Origin: an uncultured Oscillospiraceae bacterium
GTDB lineage: Bacteria > Bacillota > Clostridia > Oscillospirales > Oscillospiraceae
Assembly: GCA_934659445.1 (NCBI GenBank)
Contig: CAKUHV010000043.1
Coordinates: 1-12,766 of the forward strand
DNA length: 12,766 nucleotides
Direction: 5' to 3'
Positions within the stretch are counted from its first letter, which is position 1, and each line of letters begins with the position of its first letter. Position numbers and translations under genes: made by a program. A model generated the notes under the pieces. The model had not been told where the DNA came from, searched no databases, and worked only from the letters and a program-made list of their open reading frames with translations. Of this stretch, positions 1-12,308 are shown piece by piece.

Positions 1-76
1 CGGCCTTCGCCGCGATCTCCGTGATCTTCTTCATCTCATGGGCCTGTGCGATCTCAATGTCTGTTTTGAATTCCAT
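1..76 (-). CDS. fhs: Formate-tetrahydrofolate ligase, N-terminal fragment (runs off the left edge)
   Basis: Only 25 codons are visible. They read MEFKTDIEIAQAHEMKKITE and onward, which matches the conserved N-terminus of formyl-THF synthetases (TDIEIAQ followed by MKxITEIA). The enzyme joins formate to tetrahydrofolate using ATP, making 10-formyl-THF in the cytosol for purine synthesis or for the methyl branch of acetogenic metabolism. The ATG at 76-74 has AAGGAG at 91-86, nine bases away. A second ATG at 83-81 is out of frame and too close to the ribosome binding site. The gene has its own sigma-A promoter and a LysR-type box upstream (separate entries). It points the same way as the LysR gene, but a terminator lies between them. 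Identification rests on a short N-terminus, so the rest of the gene should be confirmed outside the window. Confidence 0.85.
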   Translation of the reverse strand, partial: MEFKTDIEIAQAHEMKKITEIAAKA

Positions 77-158
77 TTGGCATAACTCCTTATCTGTCCC
101 CGGGGAGAAGGGCCGCACACCGGGCGCACCGTTTCGCCGGGGTATTCTTGGTGGTCTC

Positions 159-187
159 ATTGTAAAAGCAATCTTCCAATCAGGCAA
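159..187 (-). promoter_or_regulatory. Sigma-A promoter of fhs
   Basis: On the minus strand, TTGCCT (187-182) and TACAAT (164-159) are separated by exactly 17 bases. The predicted transcript starts near 152 and has a leader of about 75 nt. The leader contains a CCCCGG...CCGGGG pairing and a self-complementary TCCCCGGGGA. I could not match it to the THF or ZTP riboswitch consensus. Confidence 0.7.
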
Positions 188-208
188 CTACAAAAAAATC
201 ATGTTTTT

Positions 209-223
209 ATAACGGGAAGTTAT
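209..223 (-). promoter_or_regulatory. LysR-type operator upstream of fhs (ATAAC-N5-GTTAT)
   Basis: This is a perfect 5+5 bp inverted repeat, ATAAC-GGGAA-GTTAT, with the T-N11-A spacing typical of LysR recognition sites. Read toward fhs it extends to CCAATAAC-N5-GTTAT. It ends 21 nt before the fhs -35 and its centre lies near -64. Both the sequence and the spacing are the same as at 1341-1355 in front of the panB-like gene, which suggests control by the LysR regulator encoded between them. Confidence 0.7.
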
Positions 224-254
224 TGGTCATTCCTTCCTCCTATGGGGTCATAGA

Positions 255-291
255 TAAAAGCGCGGGCCGGGGGCCTGGAGCGCCCCCGGCC
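255..291 (-). terminator. Rho-independent terminator of the LysR gene
   Basis: A perfect 10-bp GC stem, GGCCGGGGGC (265-274) with GCCCCCGGCC (282-291), has a 7-nt loop. On the minus strand it is followed after CGCGC by the U-rich stretch TTTTATC. It begins 10 bases past the LysR stop codon and separates that transcript from fhs. Confidence 0.65.
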
Positions 292-301
292 GAAGCCGTG
301 C

Positions 302-1225
302 TCAGGGCTGGTCGCTGTCGCCGCGCGCCCCGAAAGGGCCGGACTCGGAGTGAGCGCGGTCTACGATAAAGTTGCTGAACAGAGTGGATACATAGGGCTG
401 ATAAGCGTTTTTGTTGGTGACCAGACAGCACACCCAGGGGAAGCTGTCCTGCAGGGGGATCAGCTTCAGTCCCGGAAGACAATGCCGGGCGGCGTATGGC
501 CGGGGCAGGATGCAGATGCCCTTTCCCCGCTCGGTGATCTGGATGATCAGGCTGATCTTGGAGCTGGTGATGTTGATTTTGGGGTTGAACCCGGCATAAT
601 TGCAGCGGGTGAGCAGCTGGTCGTTCAGGGTGGAAAAGCTGCTGTACATATTAAAGTATTCCTCCCGCAGCTGCCCGAACCGCAGGCTGTCATTCCGGGC
701 CAGCGGGTTTGCGCTGTTGACGCACACCACCATCTCGTCCCGGGCCAGAACAATGTCGTGAAGGCAGTCGAAGGAGTCCCCGGCGATGCACACCCCGATG
801 TCCAGATTGCTGTCCGCCAGCTGCCGGCGGACAGCCTTGGAGCCGGTCTCGGTCAGCTTGATCTCCACCTCGGGGTACAGATTACAAAAATCCACGATGG
901 CGTCCATCAGGAACAGGTCCGCCAGCATGGGGGACACGCCCACCCGCAGCTTGGCATTTTTCGCGCTGCGCACATCCTGGGTAAAGTCCATCAGTGAATC
1001 GAACTCGCTCAGCAGGGGGACGACGCGGTTATAAAGCGCCTGACCGAAATCGCTGAGAAAAACGCCGTTGGGTCGGGTGACCAGAAGGGGCACCCCCAGC
1101 TCGCTCTCCAGCTTCTTGATCATTTTGCTCAGCGCAGGCTGAGACACATACAGGTGCTCGGCGGCCTTTGTATAGCTTTGATCCCGGGCGATCTGAACAA
1201 AATAACGCAGCTCACGAAGTTCCAA
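302..1225 (-). CDS. LysR-family transcriptional regulator
   Basis: This 307-residue protein is of standard LysR length. The N-terminal winged helix-turn-helix is clear at residues 1-60: ELRELRYFVQIARDQSYTKAA, then SQPALSKMIKKLE and ELGVPLL. An effector-binding domain follows at about 90-295 (RVGVSPMLADLF near its start). I chose the TTG start at 1225-1223 because AAAGGA lies nine bases upstream and the family normally begins at this LELRELRYF segment. In-frame ATGs at 1270 and 1252 would add 15 or 9 unconserved residues and lack a good ribosome binding site. It is divergent from the panB-like gene. A palindromic T-N11-A box in the shared promoter region overlaps its own -35, so autorepression with activation of the neighbour is likely. 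The ligand is unknown; a 2-oxo acid or a one-carbon related acid is only a guess from context. Confidence 0.93.
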   Translation of the reverse strand: MELRELRYFVQIARDQSYTKAAEHLYVSQPALSKMIKKLESELGVPLLVTRPNGVFLSDFGQALYNRVVPLLSEFDSLMDFTQDVRSAKNAKLRVGVSPMLADLFLMDAIVDFCNLYPEVEIKLTETGSKAVRRQLADSNLDIGVCIAGDSFDCLHDIVLARDEMVVCVNSANPLARNDSLRFGQLREEYFNMYSSFSTLNDQLLTRCNYAGFNPKINITSSKISLIIQITERGKGICILPRPYAARHCLPGLKLIPLQDSFPWVCCLVTNKNAYQPYVSTLFSNFIVDRAHSESGPFGARGDSDQP

Positions 1226-1234
1226 ACGCTCACA

Positions 1235-1240
1235 TCCTTT
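1235..1240 (-). promoter_or_regulatory. Ribosome binding site that fixes the TTG start of the LysR gene
   Basis: AAAGGA on the minus strand sits nine bases upstream of TTG at 1225-1223. It supports the shorter 307-residue reading of the regulator over the upstream ATG codons. Confidence 0.6.
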
Positions 1241-1312
1241 GCTTTTGTACATCCCGAAAGGCGGACGCATGGCCGCCCCTTCGGGGTCGGAACGGGGACA
1301 TATCTTTTTTCT

Positions 1313-1341
1313 ATTGTACCATAAAAGTTTTGAACAGCCAA
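1313..1341 (-). promoter_or_regulatory. Sigma-A promoter of the LysR gene
   Basis: On the minus strand, TTGGCT (1341-1336) and TACAAT (1318-1313) are separated by 17 bases. The start would be near 1306, giving a leader of about 80 nt. The outermost -35 base touches the LysR-type operator at 1341-1355, an arrangement typical of negative autoregulation. Confidence 0.6.
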
Positions 1342-1355
1342 TAACCTGGTGTTAT
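1341..1355 (+). promoter_or_regulatory. LysR-type operator between lysR and panB-like (ATAAC-N5-GTTAT)
   Basis: This perfect inverted repeat, ATAAC-CTGGT-GTTAT, contains T-N11-A (T1342 to A1354). Its centre lies near -64 from the predicted panB-like start, the classical position of a LysR recognition site. The bases before it extend the match with the fhs-side copy to CCAATAAC. A weaker TAT-N9-ATA dyad at 1361-1375, between this box and the -35, could be the activation site. Confidence 0.75.
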
Positions 1356-1376
1356 GTATTTATAAAACTTGGATAT

Positions 1377-1405
1377 TTGTCAAAATCGTGAAAGCCCCCT
1401 ATAAT
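1377..1405 (+). promoter_or_regulatory. Sigma-A promoter of the panB-like gene
   Basis: TTGTCA (1377-1382) and a perfect TATAAT (1400-1405) are spaced by 17 bases. Transcription should start near 1412, leaving a leader of about 26 nt that carries AGGAGG (1425-1430), seven bases before the ATG. Confidence 0.8.
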
Positions 1406-1437
1406 GAGGGCACAAAAAATTATGAGGAGGAGACAAA

Positions 1438-2310
1438 ATGTCTTATCTTATTCAGGAAGAGCGCAAAAAGGTCACTCTGGCCACCATTCACGAGAAAAAG
1501 GCCCGGGGCGAGAAGCTGGCCCGCACCGCCCTGTACGACTATCCCATGGCCTGTCTGGCTGACGAGGCCGGCATCGAGATCATCAACATGGGCGACTCCA
1601 TCGCCACCGTCATGCTGGGCGAGAACAGCACCACCAAGGCCACGCTGGATGTGATGGTGGAGCACGCCAAGGCCGTGCGCCGGGGCGCTCCCCACTGCTT
1701 CATCATGGGCGATATGCCTTACATGACCTATCAGTGCTCCCCCGAGGAGGCCGTGAAGAACGCCTCCCGCTACATGATCGAAGCCGACATGGACTGCGTG
1801 AAGATGGAGGGCGGTCTGGAGATCGTTCCCGCCATCGAGGCCTGCACCAAGGCCGCCATCCCCGTTATCGGCCACACCGGCCTGACCCCCCAGAGCGCCA
1901 TCATGCTGGGCGGCTACAAGACCCAGGGCCGCAGCGCCGAGGCTGCTATGAAGCTGATCGAGGTCGTGGAGGCCTTTGAGAAGGCCGGCTGTATCGCCGT
2001 TGTGGTGGAGGCCGTTCCCAGCGACGTGGCCAAGATCATTTACGAGAAGATCGAGATCCCCATCCTGGGCTCCGGCTGCGGCCCCTACAGCGACGCCCCC
2101 ATGATCAACTGGTACGACCTGCTGGGCTTCTATGCCCGCAACCCCAAGTTTGCCAAGAAGTACGCCAATATCCGCGAGGACATCCTGAAGGGCGCCACCG
2201 CCTTCGTGGAGGAGTGCCACAACGGCGCTTATCCCGCTCCCGAGCACAGCTACACCATGCTGCCCGGCGAGGAGGAGAAGCTGCTGAAGATGCTGGCTGA
2301 ACGCAAGTAA
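1438..2310 (+). CDS. panB: Ketopantoate hydroxymethyltransferase (PanB) family protein
   Basis: This 290-residue protein is a TIM-barrel member of the PEP mutase/isocitrate lyase superfamily. True PanB transfers a hydroxymethyl group from 5,10-methylene-THF to 3-methyl-2-oxobutanoate, making ketopantoate for coenzyme A. Family landmarks are present: a metal Asp in NMGDS (D53), a second Asp in MGDMPYM (D92), the Lys/Glu pair in VKMEGG (K122, E124), GHTGLTPQS with H146, GGYKTQGR, and the catalytic Glu in VVEAVP (E191). The later loop departs from the usual IGIGAG...TDGQ...HD pattern and reads GSGCGPYSDAP followed by NWYDLLGF. The glycine after the first metal motif (GDSLG) is also missing. No panC or panD is adjacent. 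It may therefore be a paralogue acting on another 2-oxo acid, possibly in the retro-aldol direction. Family membership is sure; the substrate is not. Confidence 0.88.
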   Translation: MSYLIQEERKKVTLATIHEKKARGEKLARTALYDYPMACLADEAGIEIINMGDSIATVMLGENSTTKATLDVMVEHAKAVRRGAPHCFIMGDMPYMTYQCSPEEAVKNASRYMIEADMDCVKMEGGLEIVPAIEACTKAAIPVIGHTGLTPQSAIMLGGYKTQGRSAEAAMKLIEVVEAFEKAGCIAVVVEAVPSDVAKIIYEKIEIPILGSGCGPYSDAPMINWYDLLGFYARNPKFAKKYANIREDILKGATAFVEECHNGAYPAPEHSYTMLPGEEEKLLKMLAERK

Positions 2311-2340
2311 GACGTCCTCTCACATATACACTGCGACACA

Positions 2341-2377
2341 GACAGCCCCGCGGCCTATGGCCGCGGGGCTGTCGTTT
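2341..2377. terminator. Bidirectional terminator between panB-like and icd
   Basis: A perfect 15-bp stem (2341-2355 with 2359-2373) has a TAT loop. It lies between two convergent genes, 31 bases past the panB-like stop and 18 past the icd stop. On the plus strand it is followed by GTTTATA. The U-tract is short on both strands, but the stem is very strong. Confidence 0.8.
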
Positions 2378-2390
2378 ATATCAGGCCGTG

Positions 2391-3614
2391 TCAGCCCCGT
2401 GCGGCCCGCAGCTGATCCAGCCGGGCGGCGATGGCCCGAAGGAACTCCTCTGAATCCACGGCGCGGGCGGTAAAGCCGGGGATGAGCAGGGGGATCAGGT
2501 CCTTTGTCATGACCCCGCCGTTGATGGTGTCCAGACAGGCCCGCTCCAGATCGTCGGCAAAGGCGCAAAGGTCGTCCAGTCCGTCCAGCTGCCCCCGCTT
2601 GCGCAGGGCCCCCGTCCAGGCAAAGATGGTTGCAACGGGGTTGGTGGAGGTCTTCTCCCCCTTCAGATGGCGGTAATAGTGCTGGGTCACGGTGCCGTGG
2701 GCGGCCTCATACTCCGTGGCGCCGTCGGGGGCAATGAGCACGGAGGTCATCATGGCAAGACTGCCGAAGGCGGTGGACACCATGTCGCTCATCACGTCGC
2801 CGTCGTAGTTCTTGCAGGCCCAGATAAAGCCGCCCCTGGAGCGGATCACCCGGGCTACGGCATCGTCGATCAGGGTATAGAAATAGGAGATGCCCAGTTC
2901 TCTGAACTTCGCCTCATAAGCGGGATACTCCTGGGCAAAGATCTCCTTAAAGCGGCCGTCATAGACCTTGGACACGGTATCCTTTGTAGCGAACCACAGA
3001 TCCTGCTTCATATCGATGGCGCACTGGAAGCAGGAGCGGGCAAAGGCCCGGATGGAGCCCTCGGTGTTGTGCATCCCCTGCCAGACGGCGGGGCCGTCGG
3101 TCCGTGCCACTTCGGCGGACAGCTGTTTGCCGCTGCTGTCGGTAAAGGTCAGGGCGCACACCCCCGGCTCGTCGCTGCACAGCTCCACGGCGCGGTATAC
3201 GTCGCCATAGGCGTGCCGGGCCACGGTGATGGGCTTCTCCCAATTGCGGACCACCGGGCGGATGGGGTCCACCAGAATGGGTGTGCGGAACACGGTGCCG
3301 TCCAGAATGGCCCGGATGGTGCCGTTGGGGCTTTTCCACATTTGGGTCAGCTGGGGATACTCCTCCATCCGCTGCCGGTTGGGCGTGATGGTGGCGCACT
3401 TGACGGCCACGCCCAGCCTCCGGGTGGCAAGGGCGGCGTCCGTCGTCACCTGATCCCCAGTCTCGTTGCGGTGCAGCAGCCCCAGATCGTAGTATTCGGT
3501 CTTCAGCTCCACATAGGGGGACAAAAGCCGGTCCTTGATCATCTGCCACAGAATACGGGTCATTTCATCCCCGTCCATCTCCACCAGCGGGGTCCTCATC
3601 TGTATCTTTTCCAC
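2391..3614 (-). CDS. icd: NADP-type isocitrate dehydrogenase
   Basis: This 407-residue protein is the homodimeric, eukaryote-like IDH type and full length. It oxidises isocitrate to 2-oxoglutarate and CO2 in the cytosol, supplying 2-oxoglutarate and reducing power. Visible motifs are PLVEMDGDEMTRI at the N-terminus, the substrate loop WKSPNGTIRAILDGTVFR, the Arg of VARHAYGD (equivalent to human IDH1 R132), the catalytic Lys in ATKDTV, metal aspartates in LIDD and NYDGDVMSD, and the cofactor loop HGTVTQHY with KTSTNPVATIFAWT. The start is GTG at 3614-3612, with AAGGAG nine bases upstream and the family-like VEKIQMRTPLVEM; reading further upstream to 3764 gives unconserved residues. The cofactor loop has Gln where IDH1 has R314. 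It is divergent from the alpha/beta hydrolase and does not clearly belong to either neighbouring module. Confidence 0.95.
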   Translation of the reverse strand: MEKIQMRTPLVEMDGDEMTRILWQMIKDRLLSPYVELKTEYYDLGLLHRNETGDQVTTDAALATRRLGVAVKCATITPNRQRMEEYPQLTQMWKSPNGTIRAILDGTVFRTPILVDPIRPVVRNWEKPITVARHAYGDVYRAVELCSDEPGVCALTFTDSSGKQLSAEVARTDGPAVWQGMHNTEGSIRAFARSCFQCAIDMKQDLWFATKDTVSKVYDGRFKEIFAQEYPAYEAKFRELGISYFYTLIDDAVARVIRSRGGFIWACKNYDGDVMSDMVSTAFGSLAMMTSVLIAPDGATEYEAAHGTVTQHYYRHLKGEKTSTNPVATIFAWTGALRKRGQLDGLDDLCAFADDLERACLDTINGGVMTKDLIPLLIPGFTARAVDSEEFLRAIAARLDQLRAARG

Positions 3615-3623
3615 GGATGCACG

Positions 3624-3629
3624 CTCCTT
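3624..3629 (-). promoter_or_regulatory. Ribosome binding site fixing the GTG start of icd
   Basis: AAGGAG on the minus strand is nine bases from GTG at 3614. It rules out the longer reading frame, which stays open without a stop up to 3764. Confidence 0.75.
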
Positions 3630-3723
3630 CGCAAAGATATAGGCTGTTTTTTCCGCAAAAACGGCCCTTTTCCGGCTCTCAAGGGTGCGGCACAAAAACG
3701 GCGAAAAATCCCCCTGAAATCGT

Positions 3724-3752
3724 ATTATATTGTAGTAAATCGACAGGAAAAA
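3724..3752 (-). promoter_or_regulatory. Probable promoter of icd
   Basis: A perfect TATAAT (3729-3724) is on the minus strand. The best 17-bp-spaced -35 is only TTTTTC (3752-3747), so it is weak and may need an activator. The leader would be about 100 nt. Confidence 0.45.
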
Positions 3753-3813
3753 GGCAAATAACAAATGGCAATAGCTCTATAACTAAGAAAAATGACCAAA
3801 TCAGGCGAATGTA

Positions 3814-3822
3814 TGCTATAGT
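3814..3822 (+). promoter_or_regulatory. Extended -10 promoter of the alpha/beta hydrolase
   Basis: TGCTATAGT gives an extended -10 (TG-n-TATAGT). The nearest -35-like hexamer, ATGACC at 3792-3797, is at a poor 19-bp spacing, which fits reliance on the extended element. The start would fall near 3829, inside the palindrome at 3827-3842. Confidence 0.5.
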
Positions 3823-3826
3823 CATA

Positions 3827-3842
3827 TTGTCGAGAGCGACAA
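3827..3842. promoter_or_regulatory. Perfect palindrome TTGTCG-AGAG-CGACAA at the hydrolase transcription start
   Basis: A 6+6 bp inverted repeat with a 4-nt centre lies immediately downstream of the -10. It could be a repressor operator over the start site or a 5' hairpin in the mRNA. A second, smaller hairpin, TGCCG-TCTTCT-CGGCA, follows at 3849-3864 within the same leader. Confidence 0.5.
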
Positions 3843-3888
3843 CTCAACTGCCGTCTTCTCGGCACAATCTCCGGAACAGGTGAGACAG

Positions 3889-4731
3889 ATGGAACTGAGC
3901 GGGAAAAATTTCCTGAAGACAACAGACGGTGCGCACATTTATTATGAGGAGTACGGCACCGGACACGAGCAGGCCATTCTCATGGTCCCCGGCTTTCTGT
4001 GTACGACGAAGTTTTTCCGCCGGAACGCCCAGGTCCTTTCCCAGGAGTACCACGTGATCCTGATGGATCCCCGGGGACAGGGATTGTCCTCCAAGACCCT
4101 TTCGGGGAACACGGTGGAGCGCAACGCCCGGGATATTGGCGAGCTAATCGGCCATCTGGGACTGAAAAAGCTGGTGCTGCTGGGCTGGTCCGTGGGCTCC
4201 TCCGTCAGTCTGGAGTACGCGGTGGAGATGGACCCCGGCCGTCTGGCCGGACTGATCCTGGTGGACGGGTCGCTGTTCCCCCTGTCCGGCGAGGACTGGA
4301 ACAAGCACCGCGCCCGGGCCTATAACGTGCAGAACTGGATGGACACCTATCTTCCCCTGTACTACGAGCCTCAGAAGTTCTATGACCGCTTTATCGAGCG
4401 CATCTCCAACGGCCTGATGAGCGACGAGGACCGGATTTGGGTGGGTGAGGAGTGCCGGAAGACCCTGCCCTGGACGGCGCTGGAGCTGCACTACGACTTC
4501 TGCCACACGGACAACCTGCCCCTGCTGCCCCGGCTGAGCGTGCCGGTGGGCTTCTTCGGCGGCAATTCCAAGGCCTACGGTCTGCAGATGCTGGAGGAGT
4601 ACAGCAGCCGGGTGACCGTCCCCAGCCGGGTGTGCCCCTTCTATGAAAGCGGCCACCTGATGTTCTATTATGAGGCGGACAAGTTCAACGCCTGCGTGCG
4701 TGACTTCTGCCGCCAGCTGGCCCGGTGGTAA
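3889..4731 (+). CDS. Alpha/beta-fold hydrolase
   Basis: This 280-residue protein has the alpha/beta hydrolase fold, a family of esterases, lipases, C-C hydrolases and related enzymes. The oxyanion turn is MVPGFLCT (residues 32-39), followed by the family motif MDPRGQGLSS (59-68), the nucleophile elbow GWSVGS with Ser101, and a C-terminal ESGH with His256. The acid is unclear: the usual strand-7 position reads GGNSKAYG without Asp, so D126 after strand 6 (LILVDGS) is a candidate. No signal peptide is seen, so the protein is cytosolic. I chose ATG 3889 because GGTGA lies five bases upstream; GTG at 3880 would destroy that site. It precedes the TAXI and TRAP genes by 100 bp on the same strand, so it may process the imported compound. 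The substrate cannot be told from sequence. Confidence 0.88.
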   Translation: MELSGKNFLKTTDGAHIYYEEYGTGHEQAILMVPGFLCTTKFFRRNAQVLSQEYHVILMDPRGQGLSSKTLSGNTVERNARDIGELIGHLGLKKLVLLGWSVGSSVSLEYAVEMDPGRLAGLILVDGSLFPLSGEDWNKHRARAYNVQNWMDTYLPLYYEPQKFYDRFIERISNGLMSDEDRIWVGEECRKTLPWTALELHYDFCHTDNLPLLPRLSVPVGFFGGNSKAYGLQMLEEYSSRVTVPSRVCPFYESGHLMFYYEADKFNACVRDFCRQLARW

Positions 4732-4749
4732 GCGGGCCCATTCGATCCG

Positions 4750-4778
4750 GATACATAAGCTGCGGCTTTTTGTATTAT
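4750..4778 (+). promoter_or_regulatory. Possible promoter of the TAXI-TRAP genes
   Basis: GATACA (4750-4755) and TATTAT (4773-4778) are spaced by 17 bases in the 100-bp gap after the hydrolase. The -10 is good and the -35 weak. A 4-bp hairpin (AAGC-TGCG-GCTT) followed by TTT lies in the spacer and is too small for a convincing terminator. The transporter may therefore be read partly from the hydrolase promoter and partly from here. Confidence 0.35.
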
Positions 4779-4831
4779 ATCCCCAGCAAATCGCAAAACA
4801 CACTCAACAGGAAAGGGAAAGGTAAATCAAG

Positions 4832-5875
4832 ATGAAGAAGTTTATTGCAATGCTCCTTGCTCTGTCCATGACCCTGGGCCTGGCGGCCTGCGGCAAGACC
4901 GAGCCTCCCGCCGGCAGCGGCACCGGCAGCGGCAGCGGCACCGGCACCACCAGCGACGAGGTGGCGCTGACCTGGGCCACCGCCTCTCTGGGCGGCACCA
5001 TCCAGATGGTCGCCACCGCCATCGCCACCGTCACCAACAAGTATGAGCCCAACTACAAGGTTACCGTTCAGGCCACCGGCGGCTCCGTCGAGAACGTCCG
5101 TCTGCTGCGCAACGGCGAGTGCGATATTGCCCACACCACCGAGGGCGTGAACGCTCTGACCGCCAAGGGCGCCTTCGACGGTGAGCCCACCTTTGACAAC
5201 CTGCAGACCCTGTTCAAGTGCTACGGCAACGAGACCGTGGCTCTGGTCATGTCCGACAGCCCCCTGACCGACACCAAGAATCTGGAGGGCCTGAAGGTCT
5301 GCATCGGCCCCACCGGCTCCGGCATCTCTCAGCAGGCCACCGCTTATCTGAAGACCATTGGCGTGTATGATAAGTGCAAGATCCTGAACATCAGCTACAA
5401 CGACTCCGTTGACGCCCTGAAGGACGGCACCATCGATGTCCTGTTTGCCTTCACCTCCGGCAAGATGCCCAACTCCTACCTGACTCAGCTGGAGACCAGC
5501 GCCGAGGTCCGCGCCCTGCCCCTGGAGACCGACGCCTTCGAGTCCATCTATGAGAACTACCCCGACTTCGGCGCCGCCACCCTGCCCGCCGGCTCCCTGA
5601 AGTGCATCACCGAGGACTACCCCACCTTCGCCTCCTACTCCATCGAGTACGTCACCGACGAGATGCCCGAGGACGTTGCCTACACCATCGTGAAGAACAT
5701 CTACGAGAATTATGACGAGCTGTGCGTCTACAACAACTCCTGCAAGGCCCTGAAGATTGAAGATGCCATGGAAGGTATCCGTCCCCAGATCCCTGTCCAT
5801 CCCGGCGCTGTCAAGTATTTCAAGGAAGCCGGCGTGTGGGACGACTCCCTGACCATCGGTACCGTCAAGGGCTGA
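4832..5875 (+). CDS. TAXI-family TRAP transporter solute-binding lipoprotein
   Basis: This 347-residue protein begins with a lipoprotein signal: KK at 2-3, a hydrophobic stretch, and the lipobox LAAC with Cys20. It should be lipid-anchored outside the membrane. A low-complexity Gly/Ser/Thr linker (about residues 28-41) leads into a type II periplasmic-binding fold typical of TAXI proteins: WATASLGGT near 48, VQATGGSVENVRLLRNGECDIAH, LKVCIGPTGSGI, DGTIDVLFAF, and a C-terminal region near HPGAVKYFKEAGVW. TAXI proteins bind organic acids such as dicarboxylates, glutamate or aromatic acids and hand them to a fused TRAP permease, here the next gene. The ligand is not predictable. The ribosome binding site is purine-rich (GGGAAAGG, 4814-4822) at moderate spacing from the ATG. 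A hairpin downstream may stabilise this message segment. Confidence 0.93.
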   Translation: MKKFIAMLLALSMTLGLAACGKTEPPAGSGTGSGSGTGTTSDEVALTWATASLGGTIQMVATAIATVTNKYEPNYKVTVQATGGSVENVRLLRNGECDIAHTTEGVNALTAKGAFDGEPTFDNLQTLFKCYGNETVALVMSDSPLTDTKNLEGLKVCIGPTGSGISQQATAYLKTIGVYDKCKILNISYNDSVDALKDGTIDVLFAFTSGKMPNSYLTQLETSAEVRALPLETDAFESIYENYPDFGAATLPAGSLKCITEDYPTFASYSIEYVTDEMPEDVAYTIVKNIYENYDELCVYNNSCKALKIEDAMEGIRPQIPVHPGAVKYFKEAGVWDDSLTIGTVKG

Positions 5876-5914
5876 TATCCAACCAATAGACCCTCTGCGA
5901 CTCAATAACCCATA

Positions 5915-5952
5915 GGCAGTGGAGGGCGCGGCGCTCGCCGCGCCCTCCTGCC
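5915..5952 (+). other. Intercistronic hairpin between the binding protein and permease genes
   Basis: GGAGGGCGCGGC (5921-5932) pairs perfectly with 5937-5948 around a GCTC loop. GGCA (5915-5918) with TGCC (5949-5952) extends the stem across a 2-nt bulge. No U-tract follows. It is best read as a 3'-end stabiliser or attenuating element that sets a higher level for the binding protein than for the permease. Confidence 0.6.
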
Positions 5953-6007
5953 AGATCGATCACTATCAGCAACCCTTTGGAAATCCATTTTGAAAGGATA
6001 GAGAGAG

Positions 6008-7915
6008 ATGGGAAAGTCCCAAAACAGTAATCTGGCGAACAAGCTGTTCCCTATTGTGGCTGTCGCCATGTGTGTTTTCCACCTTTACACCGTGGTTCAG
6101 CCCTCGCTGGACTCCATCCAGCAGCAGGCCATCCACCTGTGCTTCGCTCTGGTCCTGGTCTTCCTGGACTGCATGAGCGTAAAAGACGGCAAGAAGCCCA
6201 AAACTTTGAATGTTATTGTGGACATCGTTCTGATGGCCGTTTCCATTTATTCCCTGACGTATATTCTGGTCAAGCAGGAGACTCTGATCAACAAGATCGG
6301 GACTTACACCAGCAACGATTTATTTGTGGGAGCGTCCCTGATCCTGATCCTGTTTGTGGCTACATACCGAACCTTCGGTAAGGCCCTGCCCATTTTGGTG
6401 GGCATCTTCCTGCTGTACGGCCGCTACGGCTATGTGGTGCCCGGTATGCTGTATCACGCCGGCATCGCCTGGCCCCGCCTGATTGTCAGCGTCACCACCA
6501 ACCTGTCCGGTATGTTCGGCACCGTGCTGGAGGTCTCCTCCACCTACATCGTCCTGTTCATGATCTTTGGCGGCCTGCTGGACGCCAGCGGTGCGGGCAA
6601 CTTCTTCATCAAGTTCGCCATGTCCGCCGGCGGCAAGTCCCGCTCCGGCGCGGCCCAGGCGGCCGTAATCTCCAGCGGTCTGGTGGGCTCTATCAACGGC
6701 TCTGCCGTGGCCAACGTGGCCTCCACCGGCGTGTTCACCATTCCCCTGATGAAGGACCGCGGGTATGAGCCCCACTTTGCCGGCGCCGTCGAAGCCTGTG
6801 CCTCCACCGGCGGCATGATCATGCCCCCCGTTATGGGCGTGGCCGCCTTCGTCATGTCCGGCATCACCGGCATCCCCTACACCAAGATCGCTCTGGCTGC
6901 TTTGGTGCCTGCCCTGCTGTATTATGTTACCATCAGCTTTTCTGTCCATTTGCGCGCCCTGAAGAAGGGCTTCAAGCCCCTGACTGACGACGAGATCCCC
7001 TCCATGAAGGAGGTCATGTTCAACGGCGCCCACTTCATGACCCCGCTGATCGTGATCGTCATCCTGATGGTGTCCGGTATGTCCGCCATGCGCAGCGCCT
7101 TCTTCGGCTGCGTCAGCCTGCTGGTAGTGGTCGCCATCCGCGAGACCATCCGTGACCCCAAGTATCTGACCCGCAAGGACTTCTACGTCATGATCTATCA
7201 GGGCTTCGTCAGCGGCGCCAAGAGCTCCATGAGCGTGGCCGCTGCCTGCGCCGCCATGGGCATCATGACTCAGGTCATCATCAACACCGGCATGGCCACC
7301 AAGATCGTCTTCCTGATCAAGTCTCTGGCCGGTGGCCATATGTTCGCTGCCCTGTTCCTCACCTGCGTCATCTCCATCTTCTTCGGCATGGGCGTGCCCA
7401 CCACCGCATCCTATATTCTGGTGGCCTCTCTGGGCGCCCCCGTTCTGATCGAGCTGGGCTATCCCACGCTGGCCGTCCACCTGTTCATCTACTACTACGC
7501 CATTCTGGCCAACATCACTCCTCCCATCGCCTCCGCCGCTCTGGTGGGCTCTCAGATCGCCAAGGCCCCCTATATGCAGACCGGCTGGACCGCCGTGCGT
7601 CTGGGCCTGCCCGGCTTCATCCTGCCCTTCCTGTTTGTGTACCACCCCGAGCTTCTGCTGGAGGGCAGCTTCTTCGCCTGCGCGTCGGTCATCCTGTCCT
7701 GCCTGCTGGGCATGTTCTGCATGGCCTGCTTCTTCGAGGGCTGGTTCTTTACCAGGCTCAGCGTGGTGGAGATGGTTGGCATGGCCGCCGCCACCTTCCT
7801 GCTGGTCAAGCCCGGCACCTACTCCGATCTGATCGGTCTGGCCATCTTCCTGGCAATTTTCTTCTTCCAGTATAAGAAGGGAAAGGCCGCCAAGGCTTCC
7901 GCCGCAGCGGCGTGA
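6008..7915 (+). CDS. TRAP transporter fused 4TM/12TM permease (TAXI-associated)
   Basis: This 635-residue membrane protein fuses the small (DctQ-like, roughly the first 150 residues) and large (DctM-like) TRAP subunits, as usual for TAXI systems. It moves the bound solute inward using the sodium or proton gradient. Family segments include GGLLDASGAGNFFIKFA, GGKSRSGAAQAAVISSG, INGSAVANVASTG, GGMIMPPVMGVAAFVM, FFGMGVPTTASYILVA and ANITPPIASAALVGSQIAKA, the conserved transport-core loops. About 16 hydrophobic segments fit 4+12 helices. The C-terminus ends in a short KKGKAAKASAAAA tail. The ATG at 6008 has AAAGGA (5993-5998) at nine bases. It follows the TAXI gene by 132 bp and ends just before a strong terminator, so it closes the operon. 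Confidence 0.95.
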   Translation: MGKSQNSNLANKLFPIVAVAMCVFHLYTVVQPSLDSIQQQAIHLCFALVLVFLDCMSVKDGKKPKTLNVIVDIVLMAVSIYSLTYILVKQETLINKIGTYTSNDLFVGASLILILFVATYRTFGKALPILVGIFLLYGRYGYVVPGMLYHAGIAWPRLIVSVTTNLSGMFGTVLEVSSTYIVLFMIFGGLLDASGAGNFFIKFAMSAGGKSRSGAAQAAVISSGLVGSINGSAVANVASTGVFTIPLMKDRGYEPHFAGAVEACASTGGMIMPPVMGVAAFVMSGITGIPYTKIALAALVPALLYYVTISFSVHLRALKKGFKPLTDDEIPSMKEVMFNGAHFMTPLIVIVILMVSGMSAMRSAFFGCVSLLVVVAIRETIRDPKYLTRKDFYVMIYQGFVSGAKSSMSVAAACAAMGIMTQVIINTGMATKIVFLIKSLAGGHMFAALFLTCVISIFFGMGVPTTASYILVASLGAPVLIELGYPTLAVHLFIYYYAILANITPPIASAALVGSQIAKAPYMQTGWTAVRLGLPGFILPFLFVYHPELLLEGSFFACASVILSCLLGMFCMACFFEGWFFTRLSVVEMVGMAAATFLLVKPGTYSDLIGLAIFLAIFFFQYKKGKAAKASAAAA

Positions 7916-7927
7916 TCCGAGGTCTCA

Positions 7928-7961
7928 AAAAGGAGCGGTCCACTCAGGGACCGCTCCTTTT
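7928..7961. terminator. Bidirectional intrinsic terminator after the TRAP permease
   Basis: A perfect 14-bp stem, AAAAGGAGCGGTCC (7928-7941) with its complement (7948-7961), has a 6-nt loop. The A and T tracts form the base of the stem, so a U-run follows the GC stem in both directions. It begins 12 bases past the permease stop and also serves the converging minus-strand pair. Confidence 0.9.
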
Positions 7962-7965
7962 GATC

Positions 7966-8006
7966 GACAAGGTCCCGGCACAGGCTTTCTGTGCCGGGAC
8001 CTTGTC
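7966..8006. terminator. 18-bp hairpin directly after the serine hydrolase gene
   Basis: A perfect 18-bp stem (7966-7983 with 7989-8006) has a GCTTT loop, three bases past the stop codon of the minus-strand hydrolase. It has no adjacent U-tract on either strand. It probably acts together with the 7928-7961 terminator or protects the 3' end. Confidence 0.7.
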
Positions 8007-8009
8007 TGC

Positions 8010-8924
8010 TTACAGCTGGGGCACGACCGTATCCCACAGGGCATCCAGGATCGGCTGGGTACAGCCCTCCTTGTGGGCGGCCAGAGCGATGACCGCGTCC
8101 TGCCGGGGCAGAACGATGATAAACTGGCCGTAGATCCCCTCCGCCCGGTAGGCGTCGTCCCGGGCGCACCGCCACACCCAGTAGCCATAGCCGGCGGCGG
8201 AGTCCCGTTCGCTGCGATAGGGGTTTCCGGCGGTATCCACATGGCAGCGCACCGCATCCCGGATATAGGCGGCGGGCACCAGCCTGCGGCCCTTCCAGCA
8301 GCCCTCGTTCAGGAACAGCTGCCCCACCCGGGACATCTCCTCCAGATTCAGAAACAGGCCGCCCACCCCCAGGGTGTAGCCCAGCGGGCAGGTCATCCAC
8401 TGGGGATTGGGGATCTCCAACGGATCAAACAGCCGGGGTTTGAGATAATCTACCAGAGACATCCCAGCCCGCTTTTGGATGGCACGGGAGGCCAGAATGG
8501 GGGCACAGTTGTTGTATATGAAGCGCTGGCCTGGGGCGGACACAAGGGGGTAGTGCAGGGCGTAGTGGACCCAGTCCAGGTCCTCCAGCCAATCCCGCTG
8601 ACAGCCGTGGAGCACCAATTTGTCATAACCGGCTGTCATGGTCATCAGATGTCCCACCCGCAGCTGGCTGAGATAGTTGGAGGGACAGGCCGGAGCCTGC
8701 TCGGGGAAGATGTCCACGACCCGTTCGTCCATGGTCAGCAGCCCCTCCTCCAGCGCCATGCCCATGGCCAAAGAGAGCACCGTTTTGCTGCAGGAATGAA
8801 TGTTGTCCCGGCGGCCATCCCACCAGTAGAAGCTGTCCAGAATGGTGTCGTGTTGGCGCACTAAAACGCCGTGAATGTCCAGTCCCTCCTTACTGACAGC
8901 GGCAATAAACGGTTTCAGATCCAT
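8010..8924 (-). CDS. Serine hydrolase, class C beta-lactamase family
   Basis: This 304-residue protein has the beta-lactamase/penicillin-binding-like transpeptidase fold. The SxxK motif is S44-C-S-K47, the YxN motif is Y137-N-N139, and the third active-site strand is GIYGQFIIVLP (263-273), the GQ-type seen in EstB-like and 6-aminohexanoate-hydrolase-like members rather than KTG. There is no signal peptide, so it is probably a cytosolic esterase, amidase or peptidase and not a resistance enzyme. The start is ATG 8924, where AAAGGA lies about seven bases upstream; the frame stays open to 9002, but that part overlaps the end of the preceding permease gene. It lies 23 bp downstream of the AEC permease on the same strand, so the two are likely co-transcribed. 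The substrate is unknown. Confidence 0.9.
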   Translation of the reverse strand: MDLKPFIAAVSKEGLDIHGVLVRQHDTILDSFYWWDGRRDNIHSCSKTVLSLAMGMALEEGLLTMDERVVDIFPEQAPACPSNYLSQLRVGHLMTMTAGYDKLVLHGCQRDWLEDLDWVHYALHYPLVSAPGQRFIYNNCAPILASRAIQKRAGMSLVDYLKPRLFDPLEIPNPQWMTCPLGYTLGVGGLFLNLEEMSRVGQLFLNEGCWKGRRLVPAAYIRDAVRCHVDTAGNPYRSERDSAAGYGYWVWRCARDDAYRAEGIYGQFIIVLPRQDAVIALAAHKEGCTQPILDALWDTVVPQL

Positions 8925-8947
8925 GATTGTTTCCTTTCCGCCGGGCA

Positions 8948-9886
8948 TCAGATCAGACCCAGCTGTTTTAAGATAAAGATCCAAAAGAAGAACGTAAAGC
9001 AACAGAACAACGAGGTGGAGACCACCACCTGCCCAGTCAACTCATAGTCACTATTGTAGATCTGGGCCATGGCAAAGGCGGTGGCTGCCATAGGGGCGGC
9101 GGAGACCAGAAGGGTGACTGACAGATCGTTCCCCCGGAAGCCCAAAGCGATGGCACACAGCATCACTGCCAGGGGGATCACCACCAAACGCAGACAGCTG
9201 AGAAGAACCACCTGCTTCCACCCCTGCTTCAGGGTGGAGAAGTTGAAGGAGATGCCCAGCGTGACCAGAGCCAGAACAGTACCCGCCTGCCCAAGCGAGA
9301 CCATAGCAGACTCCACAGCGGAAGATAGACGGATGCCTAAAAGGGAGAAAGCCAGACCGGTCAGAGAGCCGACAATGAGGGAGTTCTTCAGAATACAACA
9401 GAGTAAATGAGGAACGGAGGGCTTTCCGCCGCGCAGGCTTTCCAGGGCGATCACGGCCAGCGTGTTATACAGGGGCACCAGCACCGTAATGGCAATGGTC
9501 ATGGATGCGACGCCCGCCTCATCCGTCAGTGTCTGGGCCAGAGCGATGCCGATGATGGCGATATTTGAGCGGAACAGCGCCTGAAGGCAGGCGCCCCGCC
9601 GCCGGGGGTCGGGCACGGTGCGTGAGAACAGGACGGCTCCCCCTGCGAAGAGGAGCAACGTCTGCAGCACCAGAAAGGCGATCAGCCGGGGCGAGAAGGC
9701 GCGGTCAAAATCGGCGGTATAAACGCTGTAAAACATATAGACGGACAGCAGTGCGTTGAAGCACAGCTTGTTCAGCTGGGGGACCACCGCCTCGGTCACA
9801 ATGCCCAGCCGCTTGGCCACATAGCCCACCGAGAGCTTGATAAAGATGGGTAGCACGCAGTTCAGCGCGGTCAGCAGATTGTTCAT
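8948..9886 (-). CDS. AEC-family (auxin efflux carrier type) permease
   Basis: This 312-residue membrane protein has about ten hydrophobic helices in two halves, the AEC layout. Characteristic segments are PIFIKLSVGYVAKRLG at the N-terminus, the motif FRSNIAIIGIALA in the fourth helix, ILKNSLIVGSLTGLA, and LVSAAPMAATAFAMAQIY. Bacterial members carry malate, malonate and similar small organic anions, or have unknown substrates. The start at ATG 9886 has AAGGA five bases away. In-frame ATGs at 9904 and 9979 lack a ribosome binding site and would add a soluble, unconserved leader. The gene ends 23 bp before the serine hydrolase start, which suggests the permease handles the substrate or product of that hydrolase. 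Confidence 0.92.
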   Translation of the reverse strand: MNNLLTALNCVLPIFIKLSVGYVAKRLGIVTEAVVPQLNKLCFNALLSVYMFYSVYTADFDRAFSPRLIAFLVLQTLLLFAGGAVLFSRTVPDPRRRGACLQALFRSNIAIIGIALAQTLTDEAGVASMTIAITVLVPLYNTLAVIALESLRGGKPSVPHLLCCILKNSLIVGSLTGLAFSLLGIRLSSAVESAMVSLGQAGTVLALVTLGISFNFSTLKQGWKQVVLLSCLRLVVIPLAVMLCAIALGFRGNDLSVTLLVSAAPMAATAFAMAQIYNSDYELTGQVVVSTSLFCCFTFFFWIFILKQLGLI

Positions 9887-9990
9887 GTTCGTCCTTGTTT
9901 CCATACAGGCTTTCAGTTGCCGAAATGTCCCCTTCGCTTCTCGGCCCCGCCCCCGGGGGCCCGGAACGCGGAAAAGCATGGGATAAGATA

Positions 9991-10019
9991 AAAATACCGT
10001 AAACGGGGCAAAAAATCAA
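9991..10019 (-). promoter_or_regulatory. Promoter of the AEC permease-hydrolase pair
   Basis: On the minus strand, TTGATT (10019-10014) and TATTTT (9996-9991) are spaced by 17 bases. The leader of about 100 nt contains the perfect palindrome GCCCCCGGGGGC (9949-9960). Confidence 0.5.
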
Positions 10020-10081
10020 CGCAGTTGACTAAACGGCATGGACCTATGATTTTTTGTTATGGGCGGGCCCGGGCACAGGCT

Positions 10082-10124
10082 TGCCCCCCGGCGCGGAGCC
10101 TTTGTTTTTCCGCGTCAGGGGGCA
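10082..10124. other. Hairpin in the lexA 3' region
   Basis: TGCCCCC (10082-10088) pairs with GGGGGCA (10118-10124). An inner CGCGG/CCGCG pair (10092-10096 with 10110-10114) sits across a 3x3 internal loop. No U-tract follows on the minus strand, so it is a weak candidate for the lexA transcript end. The rest of 10020-10165 shows nothing else. Confidence 0.35.
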
Positions 10125-10165
10125 TTTTCCCAAAAACGTTTTCCTCGATCCGGTCCGCGGCGGCA

Positions 10166-10783
10166 TCAATACCGCCGCACCACGGCCACCACCTTGCCGA
10201 TGATCTCGGCATGGTCGCCGTCGATGGGCTGATAGGCCGGGTTCTCCGGCAGCAGCAGGGTGTGGCCATCCTTCCGCCACAGGGTCTTCACCGTGGCCTC
10301 GTCCTCGAACAGGGCCACCACGATCTCGCCGTTGCGGGCGTCCTGCTGCCGGTGCACCACCACCAGGTCGTCGGGCAGGATGCCGGCGTTCAGCATGGAC
10401 TCCCCCCGGACCCGAAGGGCGAAGTGCTCCCCCTCCACCCCCTGGGTGTCGAAGGTCAGGTAGTCCTCGATGCACTCCTGGGCCAGAATGGGGGACCCGG
10501 CGGCCACGTTGCCCACAACGGGCACCCGGTCAGCCCTGGCGTCGATCTCCTCCGCCACCGGCCCTGTAGACACGCCGGGCAGCGAGATGGCCCGGGTCTT
10601 GCCCTCGGCCTTGACGATCACCCCGGCCTCCTCCAGCCCCTTCATGTGGAAGTGGACGGTGGAGGGGGACTTCAGTCCCACGGCCGCGCCGATCTCCCGC
10701 ACAGAGGGGGGGTAGCCGTGGTCGCTGGTGAATTGCAGAATGAAGTCGTAGATCTTCTGCTGCTTGGCGGTCAGCTTGGCCAT
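10166..10783 (-). CDS. lexA: SOS repressor LexA
   Basis: This 205-residue protein has normal LexA length and is complete. The N-terminal winged helix-turn-helix covers about residues 1-65 (TAKQQKIYDFI, YPPSVREIGAAVGLKSPSTVHFH). The self-cleavage site is A95-G96 within GNVAAGSP. The catalytic dyad is Ser129 (RGESM) and Lys166 (EATVKTLW). LexA represses DNA-damage genes and cuts itself when RecA filaments form. The ATG at 10783 has AAAGGAG eight bases upstream. A sigma-A promoter and a matching SOS box lie upstream, so autoregulation is expected. No other SOS gene is visible nearby; the gene stands alone between the AEC permease and the DUF362 gene. Confidence 0.97.
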   Translation of the reverse strand: MAKLTAKQQKIYDFILQFTSDHGYPPSVREIGAAVGLKSPSTVHFHMKGLEEAGVIVKAEGKTRAISLPGVSTGPVAEEIDARADRVPVVGNVAAGSPILAQECIEDYLTFDTQGVEGEHFALRVRGESMLNAGILPDDLVVVHRQQDARNGEIVVALFEDEATVKTLWRKDGHTLLLPENPAYQPIDGDHAEIIGKVVAVVRRY

Positions 10784-10823
10784 AAGTCAGGCTCCTTTCC
10801 CTTGCTCCGGTACTTTCGCCCCC

Positions 10824-10852
10824 ATTTTACCACAGACTCTGCCAAAAGTCAA
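10824..10852 (-). promoter_or_regulatory. Sigma-A promoter of lexA
   Basis: On the minus strand, TTGACT (10852-10847) and TAAAAT (10829-10824) are separated by 17 bases. Transcription should start near 10817, with a leader of about 34 nt. Confidence 0.8.
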
Positions 10853-10863
10853 ACGGATGTTCC
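10850..10863 (-). promoter_or_regulatory. lexA: SOS box (LexA operator) of lexA
   Basis: GGAAC-ATCC-GTTTG on the minus strand matches the Gram-positive SOS box CGAAC-N4-GTTCG with two mismatches. It overlaps the first three bases of the lexA -35. This position would block RNA polymerase and give autoregulation. Confidence 0.75.
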
Positions 10864-10899
10864 AAATTTTTACGTTTTCTTTTGCCCTCTCATAAAGAA

Positions 10900-10924
10900 G
10901 TGCCCCCGGCTCTGCCGGGGGCAC
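10900..10924 (-). terminator. Terminator of the DUF362 gene
   Basis: A perfect 11-bp stem, GTGCCCCCGGC (10900-10910) with 10914-10924, has a 3-nt loop. On the minus strand it is followed by TTCTTTATG. It lies 52 bases past the DUF362 stop and upstream of the lexA operator. Confidence 0.75.
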
Positions 10925-10976
10925 CCCACTGTTTTCTCTCTTCCGCCCCCGGGGCCGAAAGGGCAGAAGCTCAGGC

Positions 10977-12128
10977 TCACTTCATGCCGATCAGCTCATA
11001 CTCCCGGGCGCCCAGGCCGATCTTCTCCGCGTGCTCCAGGGTCTCCTTCCAGGCCATGTTGGGGTTGCTGTTCTCCCACACGTTGCCGTGGTCGTGGAAG
11101 TGGGGGTCCCGCAGGTGCTCGCCCAGCTGGCTGTTGGCAAAGGGTGTGGCCTGCTCACACAGGTCCACGCAGGCCTGATCCAGGGCCACGGGGTCAAAGG
11201 AGGCCAGCATCCCGATGTTGGGCAGGATGGGGGCGTCGTTCTCGCCGTGGCAGTCGCAGTTGGGGGACACGTCGGTGATCAGGCTGATGTGGAAGCAGGG
11301 TCGCCCGTGGCACACGGCGGCGGTATACTCCGCCATCTTCCGCCCCAGCAGCTGGGGAGCGTTATAGTTCTGGTTCCTGATGGCGTCGAAGGCGCAGGCG
11401 CCGATGCACCGGCCGCAGCCCTTGCACAGGGCGGGGTCGATCCACGCCTTGGTCACCGTCTGGCCCTGCTCGTCCGTCCTGGGCAGGTAGGAGATGGCGT
11501 TGGAGCCGCACTCTCTGGCGCACCGCCGGCAGCCCCGGCACTTTTTCTCATTCACCACGGGGTGGCCGCTGTTGTGCTGCTGCATCTTGCCCGCCCGGCT
11601 GCCGCAGCCCATGCCGATGTTCTTGATGGCGCCGCCGAAGCCCGCCTGCTCGTGGCCCTTGAAGTGGGTCAGGGAGATAAAGATGTCCGCATCCATTACC
11701 GCCCGGCCGATATACGCCTGCTTGCAGTACTCGCCGTTGGGCACAGGCACCAGAATGTCGTCCGTGCCCCGCAGGCCGTCGCCGATGATGATCTGGCAGC
11801 CGGTGGTCACCGTGTTGAAGCCGTTGAGATTGGCGCAGTCCATGTGCTCCAGGGCGTTCTTCCTGCTGCCGGGATACAGGGTGTTGCAGTCGGTCAGGAA
11901 GGGCACGCCCCCCTGCTCCTTCACCACGTCGGCCACCGCCTTGGCGTAGTTGGGCCGCAGGAACGCCAGGTTCCCCAGCTCGCCGAAGTGCATCTTGATG
12001 GCCACAAACTTGCCGTCCATGTCGATCTGGCCGATGCCCGCCTGTCGGATCAGCTTCTGCAGCTTCGCCGTCAGACTCACCCCCAGCCGGGTGCGGAAAT
12101 CCGTAAAATACACCTTAGACTTTTCCAT
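10977..12128 (-). CDS. DUF362 protein with two [4Fe-4S] clusters
   Basis: This 383-residue protein has DUF362 segments on both sides of a ferredoxin insert. The N-terminal part includes VAIKMHFGELGN (42-53), LTDCNTLYPGSRKNA and SLTHFKGHEQAGFGGAIKNIGMGCGS. Two CxxCxxCxxxC motifs follow: C197/C200/C203/C207 and C235/C238/C241/C245. The C-terminal part includes ASFDPVALDQACVDL and NPNMAWKETL. Neither fourth cysteine is followed by the proline common in ferredoxins. There is no signal peptide, so it is cytosolic. The family is common in anaerobes and has no settled biochemical role; electron transfer is inferred from the clusters. The ATG at 12128 has AAGGAG eight bases upstream. It is monocistronic, with its own promoter and terminator. 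Confidence 0.92.
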   Translation of the reverse strand: MEKSKVYFTDFRTRLGVSLTAKLQKLIRQAGIGQIDMDGKFVAIKMHFGELGNLAFLRPNYAKAVADVVKEQGGVPFLTDCNTLYPGSRKNALEHMDCANLNGFNTVTTGCQIIIGDGLRGTDDILVPVPNGEYCKQAYIGRAVMDADIFISLTHFKGHEQAGFGGAIKNIGMGCGSRAGKMQQHNSGHPVVNEKKCRGCRRCARECGSNAISYLPRTDEQGQTVTKAWIDPALCKGCGRCIGACAFDAIRNQNYNAPQLLGRKMAEYTAAVCHGRPCFHISLITDVSPNCDCHGENDAPILPNIGMLASFDPVALDQACVDLCEQATPFANSQLGEHLRDPHFHDHGNVWENSNPNMAWKETLEHAEKIGLGAREYELIGMK

Positions 12129-12301: not shown

Positions 12302-12308
12302 ACGAGGA

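Follow-up and report, generated by a model that had tools for sequence, protein, structure and literature searches.

Positions 1 to 12,766 of the contig CAKUHV010000043.1 of an uncultured Oscillospiraceae bacterium (GenBank assembly GCA_934659445.1), a stretch of 12,766 nucleotides (nt) here called the window, carry a gene for a LysR-type regulator between the 5' end of fhs, encoding formate-tetrahydrofolate ligase, and a gene for an enzyme of the ketopantoate hydroxymethyltransferase (PanB) family. The same palindromic box lies in front of both neighboring genes, and a first-pass annotation of this DNA had read the two boxes as operators of a LysR-controlled one-carbon regulon. The features of the locus are the following, by position and strand:

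1..76, minus strand: fhs (formate-tetrahydrofolate ligase), 5' end, ATG at 76-74; the gene leaves the window with 25 codons inside
159..187, minus strand: fhs promoter, -35 TTGCCT (187-182), spacer of 17 base pairs (bp), -10 TACAAT (164-159) beginning 45 nt past the box end
209..226 (core 209-223), minus strand: box 1, CCAATAACTTCCCGTTAT, before fhs
302..1225, minus strand: LysR-type regulator, TTG at 1225 as probable start, preceded by AAGGATG
1313..1341, minus strand: lysR promoter, -35 TTGGCT (1341-1336), 17-bp spacer, -10 TACAAT (1318-1313); the -35 touches the edge of box 2
1338..1355 (core 1341-1355), plus strand: box 2, CCAATAACCTGGTGTTAT, before the panB-like gene
1362..1376, plus strand: weak second box, ATAAAACTTGGATAT, 21 bp 3' of box 2, candidate activation site
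1377..1405, plus strand: panB-like promoter, -35 TTGTCA, 17-bp spacer, -10 TATAAT, 45 nt from box to -10
1438..2310, plus strand: PanB-like enzyme (ketopantoate hydroxymethyltransferase family), 290 amino acids, TIGR00222 and PF02548
3758..3772, plus strand: third, degenerate box, ATAACAAATGGCAAT, two mismatches, before the hydrolase and TAXI-TRAP genes
3817..3822, plus strand: -10 TATAGT of the third box, 45 nt after it
3889..4731 (open reading frame listed from 3880), plus strand: alpha/beta hydrolase, PF00561
4832..5875, plus strand: TAXI-family TRAP solute-binding protein, TIGR02122 (215.5 bits, cut-off 84.35)
6008..7915, plus strand: TRAP fused permease, TIGR02123 (585.5 bits, cut-off 320.65)

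The regulator matches the Pfam models HTH_1 (PF00126) in its N-terminal and LysR_substrate (PF03466) in its C-terminal part above the cut-offs. Most NCBIfam alignments to it start near residue 16 of the longer open reading frame, and TTG 1225 is, by our reading, the most likely start. Among the 25 of 57 models listed no equivalog of a named regulator was found, the best match being CidR with 202.5 bits against a cut-off of 415. The N-terminus encoded by the fhs fragment, MEFKTDIEIAQAHEMKKITEIAAKA, resembles that of the full-length Fhs of Ruminococcaceae bacterium D5 (G001), MGFMSDIEIAQSCKPKKITEIAAAAG. The PanB-like enzyme reaches 255.9 bits with TIGR00222 (cut-off 207.55). For the alpha/beta hydrolase none of the 22 NCBIfam models listed reaches its cut-off. 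A G+C-rich strong hairpin at 5920-5950, between the genes for the TRAP solute-binding protein and the permease, perhaps raises the dosage of the binding protein. The gene at 2391-3764 was considered as a further pathway member and rejected, its product being an NADP-isocitrate dehydrogenase with 601 bits to the ordinary enzyme. Neither panC nor panE is found among the ten main open reading frames of the window.

The box CCAATAACNNNNNGTTAT occurs exactly only at 226-209 (minus strand) and 1338-1355 (plus strand) of the 12,766 bases, and allowing up to two mismatches yields no further match in the window; two matches at this tolerance are reached by 2 of 200 shuffled sequences. Its 15-bp core, ATAAC-N5-GTTAT, is a T-N11-A dyad centered near -64 of the predicted transcription starts of fhs and the panB-like gene, and at both promoters the box end is followed by the -35 after 21 nt and by a spacer of 17 bp, so that the matching sequence and geometry claimed by the first-pass annotation were recovered in full. 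The leading CC was considered as part of the operator and rejected, as it is common to the two window boxes only and absent from the boxes of the relatives. The -35 of the lysR promoter overlaps box 2 by one core base, or by four bases counting the leading CCA, a layout that fits autorepression. The weak second box (ATAAA-N5-GATAT) lies, on the minus strand, 44 nt from the -10 of lysR. The third box is followed after 21 bp by a further ATAAC half site at 3779. A box directly before the TRAP solute-binding gene was also considered and rejected, none being present.

To relate boxes and promoters, a combined scan of both strands sought any box carrying no more than two mismatches whose end is followed, 44-46 nt on, by the start of a -10 hexamer. 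The window contains four such sites, the mean over shuffled sequences being 0.065, and none of 200 shuffles reaches three. These sites are those of fhs (no mismatch, 45 nt), panB (no mismatch, 45 nt), lysR via the reversed weak box (two mismatches, 44 nt) and the third box at 3758-3772 (two mismatches, 45 nt). Not even one perfect box with a -10 at this distance arises in the 200 shuffles, which bears out the earlier statement that chance hardly explains the pair. A site of the third-box type arises in 7 of 5000 shuffles of the region around 3758-3772 and in none of seven other upstream stretches of the window, chosen by the analyst.

Moreover, the box is found next to orthologous regulators. 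A protein search returned 54 LysR proteins of at least 42% identity, the window's own included, after which identity falls to 36% or less. Six LysR/PanB-like pairs share the size of the longest contig (8812, 3566, 138399, 7239, 2277 and 4902), an indirect sign of linkage. In a profile search of genome contigs, among the 80 loci listed, only L001 (in G001) and L002 (in Yanshouia hominis, G002) carry near orthologues, with 60% identity to the window LysR, and the next match has 35%. Orthologues at E ≤ 1e-70 are present in 2 of 396 genomes of one family, and at E ≤ 1e-60 in none of 400 genomes of another family; the PanB-like protein is found at E ≤ 1e-90 in 1 of 394 genomes of the order, and a search of viral contigs returned no match. 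At L001, lysR is followed by a box, the genes for the TAXI solute-binding protein and the TRAP permease, a second box, and then those for 2-hydroxyacid dehydrogenase and PanB. At L002 the TRAP genes are absent and both boxes are kept, the second with one mismatch; the place of this loss in G002 is L252:9093-9148. The distance from box to -10 is 46 and 45 nt in L001 and 46 nt at the first box of L002, and a weak site similar to the second box of the window lies 22 bp 3' of the L001 and L002 boxes as read by eye. In the 2.6 Mb of G001 the exact box is found at two places, both in this locus, with no match of a reversed-pattern control, and in G002 at one place, again in this locus. The same box thus precedes genes of the same set in two relatives with an orthologous regulator, and the reading as a predicted LysR operator holds. 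Conservation of the boxes, which had been suggested as a check on related fhs-lysR-panB loci, was found before the TRAP genes and before the dehydrogenase-panB genes; the fhs box is seen only in the window. Boxes at the fhs copies of the relatives were considered and rejected: of the 12 fhs loci eight were examined, and two-mismatch matches were present in three of these and absent in five. A LysR paralogue of 39% identity (L088/L097) is encoded in Yanshouia hominis between a 2-hydroxyacid dehydrogenase and an enolase-superfamily gene, as read by eye, and has no good box.

Independent support for the coupling of Fhs and PanB, which the first-pass annotation had proposed from their shared tetrahydrofolate (THF) carriers, comes from the gene order in G001. 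On the same strand, 3' of panB, this genome encodes fhs directly and then fchA, folD, a formate channel and a folate-family ECF transporter. The transporter passes the FolT-family model (136.5 bits, cut-off 60), FchA (161.9 of 275) and FocA/FNT (191 of 290.1) score under the cut-offs and are named by resemblance, and the names of fhs and folD in this run come from sequence similarity to other loci. Fhs, FchA and FolD cluster with the formate channel in G001 and in G245. The separate box-bearing fhs promoter of the window is the predicted counterpart of the gene that follows panB in G001. Two fhs copies are present in each of G001, G002, G245 and G399, one of them within or collinear with the PanB cluster. 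In G002 the cluster copy lies on another contig and is collinear with that of G001. Comparison of L252 and L270 with L251 places the break of the G002 cluster at the 3' end of panB, where homology to G001 ends on one contig and restarts with the next base on another, beside a serine-recombinase-like open reading frame; insertion of an integrative element seems to have separated panB and fhs in this genome.

The relatives also point to a second kind of PanB. No panC was found in the relatives G001, G002 and G245 or in any of the five genomes of the genus of G001. In a class-wide sample PanB was detected at E ≤ 1e-50 in 110 of 381 genomes at 123 places, of which 122 (that of G001 left out) were examined as loci, many of them cut by contig ends. 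A panC lies within the stretch in 87 of the 122 loci, Fhs, FolD or FchA are near PanB in nine, and 23 have none of panC, one-carbon or permease genes by the queries used. One-carbon genes accompany 8 of the 35 PanBs without panC and 1 of the 87 with panC, there 6 kb off (Fisher P 0.0002). L157 owes its count to an FchA-like gene beside an apparent histidine degradation; without it, and with L189 and L191, which form one cluster, counted once, the numbers are 6 of 33 and 1 of 87 (P 0.0017). TRAP or Tct permeases, sought with three query proteins, occur at seven loci, none with panC, one of them (L164) as a weak match 8 kb away.

A PanB tree with 138 rows, built after removal of one short row and with L189 and L191 being the same row, shows one split with an SH-aLRT of 99. 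The first side holds every row in which panC lies within 3 kb (86 rows) and four others. The second side holds 48 rows, none with panC in the stretch. Among them are the window, its relatives and each of the 19 rows that had been labelled for one-carbon or transporter genes nearby, two of them (L132 and L252) by hand. Addition of the second PanB of G1429:C19, the contig of L189 and L191, leaves the split at 99, and this long-branch row joins the side of the window. A careful tree of 93 rows, with 45 panC rows drawn randomly and ten long or duplicate rows dropped, returned the same split at 100/97; the split is read as unrooted. Furthermore, 80 genomes were searched for panC (G399, G245 and 78 of the 110); it was present in 66 and absent in 14. 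The PanBs of these 14 genomes are all on the second side. Of the 24 genomes with a second-side PanB, 14 have no panC, as against none of the 58 that hold a first-side PanB. The positions D53, S54, D92, K122, E124, H146 and E191, which we take to be catalytic or active-site residues, are kept throughout, in 15 of 15 rows of the window's subfamily, 32 of 32 other rows without panC and 86 of 86 with panC.

The gene contexts of the second-side PanBs were read by eye and the key ones were checked with models. PanB, PanE and DctPQM are combined at L130, L136, L139, L143 and L151, and each of these loci but L136 also encodes an IclR-type regulator. FolD is accompanied by a full Fhs at L143 and by no more than a C-terminal remnant of Fhs at L139. 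The genomes of the five loci have panC elsewhere, except that of L151. At L132 a candidate set for pantothenate or pantoate catabolism (PanF, M20 hydrolase, PanE) stands beside PanB in the order PanB-PanE-M20 hydrolase-YhdT-PanF-IclR, in a genome without panC and with the pantothenate symporter PanF at 559.8 bits (cut-off 328.05). L157 similarly holds PanF (594.4 bits), YhdT, PanE and PanB, and L171 the order IclR-PanB-folate transporter-Fhs. L096, whose PanB is 84% identical to that of the window, encodes TAXI-TRAP, an IlvD-like dehydratase (under the cut-offs), 2-hydroxyacid dehydrogenase, PanB, fhs, fchA, folD and the formate channel, and L099 has DctM, LysR and fhs beside a PanB of 45-47% identity. 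The only counterpart of the pantothenate set in the window is TAXI-TRAP with the alpha/beta hydrolase, whose specificity is not assigned. The remaining second-side PanBs stand alone or in other company. By eye, corrinoid-protein-, UroD-methyltransferase-, CobW- and opine-dehydrogenase-like genes were seen beside those of L133, L134 and L145, and aconitase X-like, two RraA-like and a LeuB-like dehydrogenase gene beside that of L152.

From the computed box sequence, spacing, rarity, conservation and gene content we infer binding, the sign of regulation, operon extent, reaction direction and substrate as follows. The boxes are predicted operators of the LysR encoded between them, which would bind the strong dyad near -64 and probably also the weaker site 21-22 bp 3' of it beside the -35. 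It would repress its own promoter and, in the presence of the inducer, activate its targets, the activation being suggested by the layout of recognition and activation sites. Targets in the window would be the panB-like gene, fhs and probably the hydrolase-TRAP genes; in G001 they would be the TRAP genes and the run 2-hydroxyacid dehydrogenase-panB-fhs-fchA-folD-formate channel-folate transporter. The TRAP system would import a pantoate-like 2-hydroxy acid, which the 2-hydroxyacid dehydrogenase (in G001 and G245) or PanE (in others) would oxidize to the 2-oxo-4-hydroxy acid. The PanB-like enzyme acting in reverse would then transfer the terminal hydroxymethyl group to THF, leaving a 2-oxo acid, FolD and FchA would oxidize methylene-THF to formyl-THF, and Fhs in reverse would yield formate and ATP. 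The substrate of the window PanB may be a relative of ketopantoate. D-pantoate presumably suits this type of 2-hydroxyacid dehydrogenase and also fits the PanF/PanE loci, and dihydroxy acids, e.g., threonate, are a further source suggested by the IlvD-like enzyme of L096.

The best explanation of the locus as a whole is thus a LysR regulon, probably catabolic, with release of a one-carbon unit via reverse PanB, to which we assign a probability of roughly 0.58. The catabolic direction is suggested by the uptake genes, the missing panC and the neighboring formate branch. Of the one-carbon regulon proposed at first, the LysR regulon stands; its scope was drawn too narrowly, since it takes in TRAP genes and, in relatives, a 2-hydroxyacid dehydrogenase. 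The regulator had further been thought to tune one-carbon supply together with hydroxymethyl transfer or release, and of these alternatives release is favored over biosynthetic supply, given that the relatives have no panC and that the PanB branch has no panC neighbors. A broader generalization is held tentatively, at slightly less than even odds: much of the second clostridial PanB branch may be catabolic, working in reverse to remove the hydroxymethyl group of acids resembling pantoate (or, in some genomes, that of vitamin B5 itself via PanF, hydrolase and PanE), with methylene-THF converted to formate and ATP formed by Fhs, and the window LysR would be a predicted regulator of this pathway with a defined operator.

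Several observations weigh against this reading. For the operator, a box preceding fhs is known from the window only, and the orthologous LysR is found at three loci (window, L001 and L002) that represent two lineages, as the DNA of L001 and L002 is about 94% identical and counts as one lineage beside that of the window. The second box of L002, with its mismatch, has no -10 at 44-46 nt, and the reversed-pattern control matches G002 at two places versus the single real one. At other positions the joint scan returned further weak sites with two mismatches, a single one in each of L001, L253 and L096, two in L251, two in L002 (found again in L252) and none in L254; one of the L251 sites, at 4827, has a perfect TATAAT and the other is the L001 site again. 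For the pathway, no dehydrogenase of the proposed kind is visible in the window, and all named enzymes could also work towards synthesis. G106 has no PanB over the cut-off and yet three fhs copies, so an extra fhs copy is not specific and proves little alone. The subfamily of the window PanB is altered at otherwise invariant loop positions, e.g., from CDGQxLV to SDxPMIN, and its substrate may therefore not be ketopantoate. For the branch, 10 of the 24 second-side genomes have panC, and eight of these (G1136, G1169, G1223, G1245, G1267, G1368, G1373 and G1451) hold, at the threshold used, no PanBs other than second-side ones, one of which lies about 11 kb from panC in G1451, suggesting that part of the second branch may be biosynthetic. 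In genomes of unstated completeness a missing panC may also reflect an assembly gap.

The same genes could serve assimilation, in which Fhs activates formate, the product is reduced to methylene-THF, PanB hydroxymethylates an imported 2-oxo acid, and the dehydrogenase reduces the product for excretion or use by the cell. Every enzyme involved is reversible, this is the direction usually given for Fhs and PanB, and the formate channel of G001 could import formate. The route would cost ATP in an anaerobe, G001, G002 and G245 lack the panC needed to use pantoate, and transporter genes for uptake share the box in G001 and probably also in the window, which makes assimilation unlikely. Ordinary pantothenate biosynthesis, with PanB making ketopantoate and LysR coordinating it with one-carbon supply, accounts for the passed panB cut-off of TIGR00222, for the kept catalytic residues and for the eight panC genomes with second-branch PanBs only; it is hard to reconcile with relatives that carry the regulon without panC, with the absence of panC and panE from the ten main open reading frames of the window and with a window PanB outside the branch of all 86 panC-adjacent rows, and we regard it as quite improbable. 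That the two window boxes and their spacing are a coincidence, or belong to another regulator, would fit with AT-rich promoters looking alike, with an fhs box known from one genome and with weak such sites elsewhere; it is very improbable, since no shuffle of 200 yields a single perfect box with its spaced -10 and the box recurs in G001 at this locus only.

If the reading of PanB-dependent one-carbon release is true, a gene that is routinely assigned to vitamin B5 biosynthesis would in a number of anaerobes indicate degradation of a related acid, and perhaps sometimes of the vitamin, and the predicted makers and consumers of vitamin B5 in the gut would shift. Carbon would moreover enter the one-carbon pool by a new way that is linked to the formation of ATP, and the regulator, whose operator is defined, would be available for testing this.

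The remainder of the window adds genes of other kinds. On the minus strand, 8010-9002 encodes a serine hydrolase akin to 3-succinylated cholic acid synthase, far under the cut-off (164.9 of 800 bits), which adjoins an auxin-efflux-type carrier at 8948-9979. A DUF362 protein with 4Fe-4S ferredoxin-type motifs (10977-12128) and a tRNA gene (12362-12435) follow on the minus strand, and at the gathering score Rfam returned the tRNA only over the window.

Compared with known systems, the Fhs, FchA and FolD enzymes form the module by which clostridia that ferment amino acids and purines produce formate and ATP. The clusters of G001 and G245 hold the same enzymes plus a formate channel, and the feed here seems to be hydroxymethyl transfer of the PanB type and not glycine, serine or formiminoglycine. 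The window PanB aligns over nearly its whole length with the structures 1m3u and 1oy0, which we take to be the PanBs of E. coli and M. tuberculosis, and the seven checked positions are kept in 15 of 15 rows; it differs from them by its separate branch, its changed loops and its neighbors, which are TRAP, 2-hydroxyacid dehydrogenase and one-carbon genes and not panC. The pantothenase of Pseudomonas fluorescens likewise represents a bacterial route from pantothenate, and leftover pantoate could feed the proposed pathway; to our knowledge, the onward routes of pantoate in this species do not use PanB. The protein behind this pantothenase is called unknown in the accessible part of one account (PMC10393543). 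In those parts of the texts that are accessible, PanB figures as a biosynthetic enzyme in a gut vitamin pathway reconstruction of 2019 (PMC6593275), and a 2025 review of CoA metabolism in gut bacteria treats pantoate as a precursor (PMC12570885). Our bounded literature searches, which covered few subscription journals, returned no catabolic PanB. As far as the accessible text of PMC8407307 describes them, LysR regulators use a recognition site of the T-N11-A type around -65 together with an activation site close to the -35, and the present locus is alike in its dyad near -64, its weaker site by the -35 and a regulator gene divergent from one target, whereas its targets, the PanB, Fhs and TRAP set, differ from those of the described systems. 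The operator layout is thus standard for LysR, and the catabolic PanB is, within the literature searched, the new part of the proposal.

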